Part shown: positions 9,978 to 23,474 of the stretch, one piece after another
How the letters are laid out: the number at the start of each line of letters is the position of its first letter
Position numbering within the stretch: position 1 is the first letter of the stretch
Source: Jiangella sp. DSM 45060
Lineage (GTDB): Bacteria; Actinomycetota; Actinomycetes; Jiangellales; Jiangellaceae
Reading direction: 5' to 3'
NCBI RefSeq assembly: GCF_900105175.1
Contig: NZ_LT629771.1
Span: 6,530,622 to 6,594,621, forward strand
Length of the DNA: 64,000 bases
The notes under the pieces: generated by a model
The model's input: only the letters and a program-made list of their open reading frames with translations
Told to the model about the DNA's origin: nothing
Database searches by the model: none
Program-made: the position numbers and the translations under genes

Positions 9978-10165
9978 TAGGATCGCGAATGCCCGGGCTC
10001 CGGCCCGGGTGCGACGAGTGTCTGCGAAGTCCGGTTCGATTCCGGCGCTGTCCCGCAACTGTGAAGCCGCCCGCCTGCCGCGGACGGACGAGTCAGGTCG
10101 CCAGCCTCGTGGCCCGGATTCGTCCTCGGTAGAAGGGCGGTTCGCAGGTGGCAACCGGCCATCGG
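9978..10165 (+). promoter_or_regulatory. Cobalamin (B12) riboswitch
   Basis: The region has the conserved cobalamin aptamer blocks: a paired GCCCGGGC/GCCCGGGT arm, then GCGAAGTCCGGTTCGATTCC, GGCGCTGTCCCGCAACTGTG, and the B12 box GACGAGTCAGGTCGCCAGCC near 10088. A C-rich stretch (CCCCCTCAC, about 10169-10177) just downstream can pair with the AAGGAGG ribosome site of the next gene, so repression of translation initiation when adenosylcobalamin binds is plausible. The outer boundaries are approximate. Confidence 0.92.
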
Positions 10166-11172: not shown

Positions 11173-12230
11173 GTGAGCAGGGCCGTGGGCACCGACCAGC
11201 ACACCGCGACGGCGACGTTGCGGGCGGTCCGGCTGCCCCGGCGCTGGCTGTTCGGCTCGCTGGCGGTCCTGGTGGCGGCGGTCCTGCTCGGCCTGACGGT
11301 CGGGCCCGCGGGGCTGCCGCTGCGCGGCGTCGTCACCGAGATCGTCAACCTCGTCCCGGGGGTCGACCTCGCCGGCGGGCTGGACGACCGCGAGGCGGCG
11401 GTGCTCTGGCAGCTGCGCGCGCCACGGGTAGTGCTCGGCCTGCTGGTCGGCGCCATGCTGGCGCTGGCCGGGGCCGGGTACCAGGGCGTGTTCCGCAACC
11501 CGCTGGCCGACCCGTACCTGCTCGGCGTCGCCGCCGGCGCCGGGCTGGGCGCGACGTTCGCGATCGTCTCCGGCGGCAACCGCCTGCTGGTGCCGCTGGC
11601 CGCGTTCACCGGCGGCGTGCTCGGCGTGGCCGCCACCTACGCGCTGGGCCGCAGCGTCGGCGGGCGCAGCACGAACTCGCTGATCCTGGCCGGCGTCGCG
11701 GTCGCGGCGTTCCTCACGTCCGTGCAGACCTACGTGAACCAGCGCAACTCCGACTCGCTGCGCGAGGTGTACGGCTGGATCCTCGGCCGGCTGCTCACCG
11801 CCGGCTGGGACGAGGTGCTGGCGGTACTGCCGTACATCGCGGTGTCGGCGCTGGTGATCCTGGCGCACCGGCGGCTGCTCGACGTGCTCAGCGTCGGGCC
11901 CGACGAGGCCGGCACGCTCGGCGTGCCGGCCTCGCGGGTGCGGCTGGCGGTGGTGCTGGCGGCGACGCTGGGCACGGCGGCGGCGGTGTCGGTCAGCGGG
12001 CTGATCGGGTTCGTCGGCATCGTCGTCCCGCACATCGTGCGCATGCTGGCCGGGTCGTCGTACCGCATCGTGCTGCCGCTGGCGGCGGTGGTCGGTGCGA
12101 CGTTCCTGGTGGTCGCGGACCTTGTCGCCCGCACCGTCGTCTCGCCCGGCGAGCTGCCGGTGGGCGTCGTCACGGCGTTCGTGGGGGCGCCGTTCTTCAC
12201 GCTGGTGCTGCGCAGCGCACGGAGGCCGTG

Positions 12231-12234
<4 letters not shown>
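11173..12234 (+). CDS. btuC: Cobalamin ABC transporter permease (FecCD/BtuC family)
   Basis: The protein has 353 residues and about ten membrane segments. FecCD signatures include LWQLRAPRVVLGLLVGAMLALAGAGYQG, VFRNPLADPYLLGVAAGAGLGA and GFVGIVVPHIVRMLAG, the last holding the coupling helix that contacts the ATPase. GTG 11173 is just past the btuF stop; in-frame sequence upstream lies inside btuF and is not used. It overlaps btuD by 4 nt. Together with BtuF and BtuD it forms the type II corrinoid importer. Confidence 0.92.
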
Positions 12235-13039
<805 letters not shown>

Positions 13040-13043
<4 letters not shown>

Positions 13044-14008
13044 GCCCGCTTTGCAATGAGCACCGATACGCATCGATGCGTATCGGTGCTCATTGCAAGG
13101 GCCGACGGGCTGCCGCGGCCACCGTGGCTGTCGCCGCCGGTCTGGACGCCGCGTTCCGGGAGCCGCCGCTGGCCGTGCACCCGGTGCGCTGGGCCGGCCG
13201 CTACCTGACGTGGGCGGGGCGGAGGGTGCCGTCTGGTCCGCCCGCTCGCGCGGTCCTGACCGGCGGGCTGGCCTGGGCGGTGGGCGCGGCGACGGCGTAC
13301 GGCGCGGGCGTCGCGGTGGCGCGGGTGGCCGGACTGCTGCCCGGGCCGGTGCGCCCGGTCGTCACCGGCGCGGCGCTGTGGCCGCTGTTCGCGCATCGCA
13401 TGCTGCTCGACGAGGTCGCCGGGGTCGAGCGGGCCCTGGCCTCCGGCGGCGTGACGGCGGGCCGGGCGGCCGTGGCGCGCATCGTCAGCCGCGACGTGTC
13501 CGGGCTGACGGCGGACGAGGTCCGGCAGGCGGCGGTCGAGTCGCTGGGCGAGAACCTGTCCGACTCGGTCGTCGCGCCGCTCGTCTGGTACGCGGTGGGC
13601 GGGCTGCCCGCGGCTGCGACGTACCGGTTCGCCAACACCGCCGACGCTGTGTGGGGCTACCGCACGCCGCGCTGGAACCACGCCGGCCGGGTCGCGGCCC
13701 GCGCCGACGACCTGCTCAATCTGGTGCCCGCTCGGCTCACCGGCGTCCTGCTGGCCGGTCGCCGGGTGCCGTGGGCCCGGCTGCGCGCCGAGGCCGCGCT
13801 GACCCCGTCGCCGAACGCGGGCTGGCCGATGGCGGCGCTGGCCCTGCGGCTCGGGGTGCGGCTGGCCAAACCCGGTGTCTACAAGCTGGGCGCGGGCGGC
13901 CGGGCCGTCGGTCCGGCGGACGTCGCCGCTGCGCTGCGCCTGGCCCGGCGCCGCGGGTGGGCACTGGCCGCCGCTGCCGCCGTCGTCGCGGGGGTGCGGG
14001 CCCGATGA
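13040..14008 (+). CDS. cobD: Adenosylcobinamide-phosphate synthase CobD (CbiB) with palindromic N-terminal insertion
   Basis: The protein has 322 residues in the membrane-bound CobD/CbiB family, which attaches the aminopropanol arm to adenosylcobyric acid. Family motifs: LDAAFREPPLAVHPVRWAGR near the N-terminus, ESLGENLSDSVVAPLVWYA (about residue 171), RFANTADAVWGYRTPRWNHAGRVAARADDLLN and TPSPNAGWPMAALAL. Several hydrophobic segments run through it. ATG 13040 overlaps the btuD stop. Codons 5-20 come from a 48-bp perfect palindrome. Removing exactly 48 bp leaves an intact frame reading MSPLGRRAAAATV, so it looks like an in-frame insertion. It has a 4-nt overlap with cobQ. Confidence 0.9.
13051..13098. 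repeat. 48-bp perfect palindrome inside the 5' end of cobD
   Basis: The 24 bases 13051-13074 are the exact reverse complement of 13075-13098, centred on CATC/GATG, with no mismatch. The flanking pair 13050/13099 (T/G) breaks the symmetry. It begins 11 nt after the cobD start codon and adds exactly 16 codons. In RNA it would form a very stable hairpin of about 22 bp at the start of translation. Its A/T-richer composition (TTGCAATGAG, CGATACGCATCG) differs from the surrounding GC-rich sequence, which suggests an inserted element. No second copy is visible in the window. Confidence 0.97.
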
Positions 14009-23417: not shown

Positions 23418-23431
23418 CCCCGTCACACGAA

Positions 23432-23474
23432 ACAGCCGCGCGGCCCGGGATCAGCTCCCGGGCCGCGCGGCTGT
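23432..23474. terminator. Two-way terminator hairpin between pabA and pknB
   Basis: ACAGCCGCGCGGCCCGGGA and its exact reverse complement form a perfect 19-bp stem with a 5-nt loop (TCAGC) in the 66-bp gap between two convergent genes. The position fits termination from both sides. Confidence 0.88.

Follow-up and report, generated by a model that had tools for sequence, protein, structure and literature searches.

Rickettsia palindromic elements (RPEs) are approximately 150 bp long, and almost half of the copies in the first reports are located in open reading frames, according to the available part of the source (PMC10969869). In the accessible portion of a second report (PMC6649704), RPEs are said to lose their repeat identity with time; the same portion describes perfect palindromes of up to 284 bp in genes of nematomorph mitochondria, gained or lost between species. 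REPINs, as outlined in the available extract of PMC3116915, consist of two conserved inverted arms and a spacer, are predicted to form hairpins and occur in tandem clusters, with singlets being likely remnants. For REPs, the accessible text of PMC3733652 describes a terminal GTAG or CGTC tag. The orthoswitch model of REPs, in the excerpt available of PMC3686654, holds that a new variant spreads and that the originals stay and decay, and might be partly replaced.

The palindrome described here lies within cobD of Jiangella sp. DSM 45060. It is probably a copy of a palindromic repeat that is old, dispersed in the Jiangellaceae and formerly or rarely mobile.

A perfect palindrome within cobD

The stretch of DNA analysed (the window, 64,000 nucleotides) covers positions 6,530,622 to 6,594,621 of the 7.49-Mb contig of Jiangella sp. 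DSM 45060 (genome G000). The features relevant to the palindrome are:

9978 to 10123, plus strand: cobalamin riboswitch match upstream of the operon (31.7 bits, gathering score 31.5)
12228 to 13043, plus strand: ABC transporter ATPase gene, its stop overlapping the cobD start, 7 nt from its stop to the element
13040 to 14008, plus strand: cobD (CobD/CbiB, PF03186 match), with the element in frame near its start
13047 to 13102, no strand: element with its 4-nt flanks, as used for covariance model R1 (family consensus CCCTTTGCAATGAGCACC..TACGCAYC and complement)
13051 to 13098, no strand: palindromic element in its 48-bp form, two perfect 24-nt arms without a loop, read from the sequence
13076 to 13078, plus strand: ATG at the palindrome centre in the cobD frame, a putative internal start, read directly

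The original prediction described a perfect 48-bp palindrome, inserted in frame 11 nt into cobD, adding 16 codons and poorer in GC than its surroundings; direct reading agrees on all these points. The arms (13051-13074 and 13075-13098) comprise 24 nt each and are 100% complementary with no spacer between them. The start ATG of cobD is located at 13040, and the element begins 11 nt after that A. Its GC content is 50%, compared to 78% in the 500-bp flank and 74% in the window. Allowing up to 3 mismatches, the 24-mer has no occurrence in the window besides these two arms, and 100 shuffles gave no match. Since the PF03186 (CobD_Cbib) match begins at residue 30 of CobD, the inserted peptide precedes the CobD domain. 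The cobD frame is open in all three genomes carrying the element at this place (G000, G001 and G002; 322, 323 and 322 aa).

The B12 operon is arranged in the order cobalamin riboswitch match, periplasmic binding protein, FecCD permease, ATPase, cobD and cobQ-/cobS-like genes. The riboswitch match, which precedes these transport and synthesis genes, only barely clears the curated score. For RNA of the cobD stretch, a fold of -63.7 kcal/mol over 91 nt is predicted (z-score -8.8), and so stable a hairpin might affect cobD translation as a side effect. Most likely, the cobD copy is tolerated as a passenger and hardly affects CobD. Only one other hairpin in the window has perfect arms of 15 nt or more and a loop not exceeding 12 nt; it is GC-rich, with 19-nt arms and a 5-nt loop (23431-23474).

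A repeat family in the Jiangellaceae

The genome search proposed with the original prediction, for the element and for half of it, returned 61 matches of the 24-nt arm with up to 2 mismatches in G000 and none for the reversed control. The element was present at 35 of the 36 G000 places fetched (L133, without it, was dropped); the genome thus holds at least 35 sites, 33 of them complete, a lower bound since 7 weak 2-mismatch matches stayed outside the set. The consensus is CCCTTTGCAATGAGCACC-NN-TACGCAYC, followed by a loop and the complement, where NN is a variable dinucleotide. Among 70 complete elements from three genomes, 30 are 48 bp long without a loop and 24 are 58-59 bp; the remaining 16, one of 49 bp among them, have other lengths of up to 218 bp. 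Where a loop is present, 10-11 nt is the commonest size and 170 nt the maximum. A solo arm was found at L127, and runs of tandem arms at L132 and L174. Such runs, in which a single arm plus loop is repeated (L132:2000-2276 in G000; L174:1695-2020 and L187:1695-1816 in G001; periods of approximately 57, 38 and 31 nt), adjoin one opposite arm, as if half the palindrome had multiplied.

Covariance model R1 gave 64, 115 and 72 matches in G000, G001 and G002, respectively (both strands counted, up to 150 candidates scored). Altogether, 8 of 12 Jiangella genomes were matched, the five others with 2-13 matches each, and none was found in G003, G005, G006 and G009. The arm search detected 0, 1, 3 and 1 arms in these four genomes; two of the three in G006 belong to a long-looped copy at a site common to G001. 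R1 was also run on 296 genomes of the class, with 17 candidates scored in each, and matched 10, all from one family: the 8 Jiangella genomes and 2 of a second genus. In the latter, most arms read TTTGCAATGCACAC or TTTGCAATGCGCAC, then 1-2 variable bases and TACGCA, mostly mirrored on the opposite side (by eye). Relatives were named by identical loci (approximately 100 nt compared): G004, J. asiatica; G005, J. aurantiaca; G006, J. endophytica; G009, J. muralis; G010, J. rhizosphaerae; G011, J. ureilytica.

Two patterns had no match in viral contigs and none was obtained in plasmids, and carriage by phage or plasmid was therefore rejected. The exact G000 arm had no match in a genome contig collection in which near relatives of the window may be absent. 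A looser arm pattern retrieved 40 stretches, 12 of them from Jiangella and 28 others with one match each, of which five were looked at (L073, L079, L080, L086 and L097). No paper describing this repeat was found in the open-access library searched, as judged from listings and selected passages.

A second palindrome family, consisting of CCATGATCATCAATGATCCAAC and its complement, was observed in G000 (L308:12450-12510 and 13500-13557, L315:10722-10769). Its arms, with up to 2 mismatches (forward/reverse), number 10/11 in G000, 18/16 in G003, 15/15 in G006 and 9/8 in G008, compared to 0-3 each way in the other eight genomes and none for the reversed control. It is thus abundant in G003 and G006, both free of R1 matches, and at L315 it occupies in G000 the place where G001 carries the first family. 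Intergenic repeated inverted stretches around GTCACCTGATCGT / ACGATCAGGTGAC, seen by eye at L312 and L323 (G000) and L328 (G009), perhaps represent a third family.

Genomic context and coding copies

Of 130 sites in the three genomes, 62 lie between convergent, 53 between co-directional and 13 between divergent genes, and 2 were placed inside genes by the gene finder, a codon-usage script of our own with the window as training set (these counts omit the gene-centred loci L189, L203 and L204). In G000 alone, 16 of 33 intergenic sites are convergent. The convergent share of intergenic sites (62/128) compares to 7/29 gaps in the window and 6/81 gaps in other fetched loci (gaps of at least 48 nt), the counts not being independent since shared sites were counted once per genome. 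Elements are located close to gene ends: 145 of 177 distances from a stop codon are 100 nt or less (median 37 nt), and in 12 of the 177 measurements the TGA of the element itself is the gene stop. Looped forms are convergent in 42/70 cases, 48-bp forms in 19/53. By eye, the element at L278 (G001) replaces a gene end and supplies the stop; at L318 (G000), the gene continues to its own stop.

Three of the 35 G000 sites are coding; the gene finder counted two, its cobD start having fallen behind the element. The copies are located at the CobD N-terminus, ahead of the dimerisation domain in an M20 hydrolase and in the C-terminal tail of alanine racemase (alr), and all three use the same frame of the element. 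Alignment of cobD starts, suggested with the original prediction, showed the copy in G000, G001 and G002 and empty alleles in seven genomes (G004 to G009 and G011); G003 and G010, from which no cobD start was recovered, are outside this comparison. With copies at the same cobD place in two other genomes, the assembly artefact raised as an objection at the outset is very unlikely. The M20 copy is found in G000 and G001, and the gene is uninterrupted in 9 other genomes; the alr copy is present in G000, G001, G002 and G011 and absent in 7 genomes. Between G009 and G000, the genes differ in length by 48 nt (cobD), 48 nt (alr) and 81 nt (M20), all multiples of three.

Conservation of the arms

Arm statistics were obtained from complete elements (n = 70) or clean orthologous pairs (29, 10 and 17). 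For the sites that G001 and G002 have in common (34 arms), identity reaches 98.2% over the 21 fixed arm positions, compared to 71.1% in the 30-nt flanks and 60.5% after shuffling, figures partly biased since the sites in both genomes were found by their arms. Positions 1-5, being outside the arm search pattern, are a cleaner test: here, 0/170 cells differ between G001 and G002 and 14/310 between G000 and G001, and deviations from the consensus amount to 0/575 in G001, 2/330 in G002 and 14/325 in G000. The arms are thus kept clean in G001 and G002, whereas those of G000 appear to be under relaxation.

The variable dinucleotide is identical between both arms in 48/70 elements (shuffled mean 13.9, maximum 24), and 93.3% of the stem cells pair, compared to 89.6% in shuffles. 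Both observations are partly due to descent from palindromic parents in inherited subfamilies. Between G000 and G001, 28 one-arm changes of the dinucleotide stand against 9 two-arm changes; since the latter are about as frequent as one-arm rates predict, compensatory change is weakened as proof of a selected stem. At L139, the dinucleotide is TC/TC in G000, TA/TA in G002, TG/TG in G007 and G011 and mismatched in G001; it is thus matched in four of five species, in three kinds. No clear covariation of the flanks beyond the arms was detected at offsets 1-15, the lowest value being 38/1000 shuffles at offset 14.

Inheritance and loss of copies

The orthologous place is occupied in G001 for 34 of the 35 G000 sites and in G002 for 11; L130, the sole site without a G001 partner, pairs with a G002 site. 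Since no G000 site is private (0/35), nothing there shows recent movement. Of 62 G001 sites examined, 17 are common to G001 and G002. Wider sharing was found for L139 (with G007 and G011), L112 (G010), alr (G011), L147 (G008) and the G001 site L257 (G006); for most other single arms tried in wider relatives, no site matched on both flanks.

A tree built on five gene stretches unites G009 with G000 and G001 in a clade with a support of 0.999; the pairing of G000 and G001 reaches only 0.564, and G002 is placed elsewhere. G009 is empty at the 7 G000 sites with flanks compared, 4 of which are filled in G002. Sites filled in G002 and empty in the nearer G009 call either for parallel insertion or for repeated loss. 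The best fit is an ancient presence followed by several losses, and parallel insertion at identical places is less favoured. Most copies thus appear to be old and inherited, and losses within individual lineages to have been heavy. No target-site duplication is visible in the 7 empty-site alignments, the borders of which have diverged. Filled sites exceed empty ones by 48 to 91 nt at six sites; at L113, the empty genome is the longer one. Twenty G001 sites have no G000 partner; 14 of these places were located in G000 by both flanks, most of them with intergenic borders too diverged to read, and 6 were not found.

The REP transposase family PF01797 was not found in any of the 12 Jiangella genomes (the control matched in 5/14 known genomes), and mobilisation by RAYT or IS200/IS605 was rejected on this ground. 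No longer element with the same ends was detected among the G000 arm matches, which at up to 1 mismatch lie singly or in groups of less than 300 bp; a longer element with more diverged ends is conceivable.

A single-base difference at arm position 23

Position 23 is T in 62/65 G000 arms, and C in 107/115 G001 and 66/66 G002 arms; five of the 115 G001 arms carry T. At the 29 complete orthologous G000-G001 sites, it differs in 54 of 58 arms, with 24 sites being T/T versus C/C. At the same sites, the 21 fixed positions differ in 42/1218 cells, near the 4.4% (4400/100,624) of the aligned flanks. The solo arms at L113 and L127 differ at base 23 as well. Seven of the 58 arms, all of them differing at base 23, retain a shared rare variant 4-8 nt away, and the switched sites L123 and L143 retain their loop. 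Over all looped G000-G001 pairs, the loop is the same in 3/18 and different in 15/18; L136 is looped in G000 and loop-free in its G001 and G002 partners.

Ordinary gene conversion does not account for the whole pattern, nor does a mutation bias tied to a short sequence context. Mutation at a short motif was rejected, as TACGCACC is not depleted outside the elements in G000 (105 in total, 1 in arms; in G001, 198 in total, 103 in the arms examined). Counter to this, C-to-T change at ACGCACC was found in 2/16 flank cases (3/17 with laxer edges), compared to 787/73,359 for C generally, and mutation at a longer recognition sequence is conceivable. Gene conversion between copies, or replacement of whole old-site elements by the type now current in the species, agrees with the near uniformity of base 23 within each species and with the five G001 arms carrying T, which a variant capable of spreading would produce; replacement would also explain the differing loops and the loop gained at L136. 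However, the variants and loops retained at switched sites would confine conversion tracts there to a few nucleotides, whole-arm replacement cannot be the full account for the same reason, and the solo arms have changed as well. We regard conversion or replacement as unlikely. Tentatively, and with somewhat more confidence, an element-specific factor may be considered to recognise the arms at the level of single bases, with base 23 changed from C to T in place in nearly all G000 copies, either through a change in specificity followed by genome-wide selection on its targets or by a copying or editing process that homogenises dispersed palindromes at single-base resolution. Such an in-place change would cover the solo arms and both arms at 24 of the 29 complete inherited sites, some of which kept their neighbouring locus-specific variants. 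Of these possibilities, a changed specificity of the putative arm-binding factor is the cause we would prefer.

Origin and possible functions

The dispersal of the copies, their shared sites, the in-frame coding copies with empty alleles, the conservation of the arms and the presence of few copies or none in several lineages are direct observations. They are consistent with a formerly or rarely mobile repeat that behaves like a miniature non-autonomous element, whose copies would have come to many gene borders, where 3' ends tolerate a palindrome. Within genes, insertions of a length divisible by three would survive where a tail or linker tolerates them, as in cobD. A putative trans-acting protein may recognise the arms, may once have moved them and may still keep their sequence.

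A function at gene 3' ends, as mRNA stabiliser, as transcription block between convergent genes or as binding site for a chromosome protein, would be compatible with a mobile origin, since the two are not exclusive. The excess of convergent sites, the short distances to gene ends, the conservation of the arms beyond that of the flanks, the matched dinucleotides at L139 and the low predicted folding z-score of the cobD stretch all speak for selection on such a function. Against it, the T run expected 3' of the GC-rich hairpin of an intrinsic terminator is absent, and the consensus goes on with AAAGGG instead; G003, G005, G006 and G009 manage with three arms at most and without an R1 match; and one-arm changes of the dinucleotide outnumber two-arm changes. 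A 3'-end function is thus a serious possibility, albeit on balance a doubtful one. Far less probable is the translational switch of cobD within the B12 operon that the original prediction offered as its second reading. The predicted hairpin does begin 11 nt after the start codon, in an operon behind a cobalamin riboswitch match, and three genomes carry it there, but seven Jiangella genomes have cobD without it and 34 further places in the G000 genome carry the element, for which reason a cobD-specific switch was rejected as the main reading. An operator of a transcription regulator would account for dozens of sites with a long and conserved inverted repeat; it is similarly improbable, as only 13 of 128 intergenic sites are divergent and the frequent match of the dinucleotide between arms is not required by dimer binding. 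The dispersed, largely inherited repeat remains the preferred reading for the cobD palindrome.

Comparison with known repeat systems

The original prediction compared the palindrome to RPEs, as a mobile element inserting in coding frames. The comparison holds for the palindromes in frame within genes of unrelated function (cobD, the M20 gene and alr), the presence of which varies between species and which have empty alleles in relatives. It does not extend to size and location, and 32 of the 35 sites are outside genes, with copies mainly inherited: approximately 54 of 70 Jiangella elements are 48-59 bp long, in contrast to the approximately 150 bp of RPEs, 3/35 sites are coding compared to nearly half, and the host is an actinobacterium. 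Moreover, the Jiangella arms stay conserved, whereas the identity of RPEs fades according to the part of the source available. The nematomorph palindromes, as far as described in that part, are likewise perfect, located in genes and gained and lost between species, but they are mitochondrial and reach 284 bp.

With REPINs, the element has in common inverted conserved arms, a variable spacer, predicted hairpin formation, a mostly extragenic location, solo arms and tandem runs. It differs in that PF01797 is absent from the Jiangella genomes and in that the consensus starts with CCCTTTGCAATGAGCACC, without the GTAG or CGTC tag that the accessible text gives for the REP foot. Terminal inverted repeats common to a full-length transposon, as in MITEs, were not found among the G000 arm matches. 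For the element, Rfam gave no match exceeding its gathering score, MIR8622 alone touching it with 33.7 bits versus 197 required. The take-over by a new repeat variant between related strains is reminiscent of the REP orthoswitch as the excerpt presents it, except that in Jiangella the new base is found at the inherited sites, where neighbouring variants have in some cases been retained. The one-base change, present at inherited sites in almost every copy, provides a natural test of the mechanisms that keep short dispersed repeats uniform in bacteria; for REPs, this question was reportedly raised long ago by Higgins et al. in 1988 (cited in PMC2267715).

By the features tested, the element is neither an RPE nor a REPIN, nor strictly a MITE. 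It resembles RPEs in its effect within genes and REPINs in its anatomy, and adds a REPIN-like palindrome family in genomes without the known REP transposase, with coding copies as in Rickettsia.
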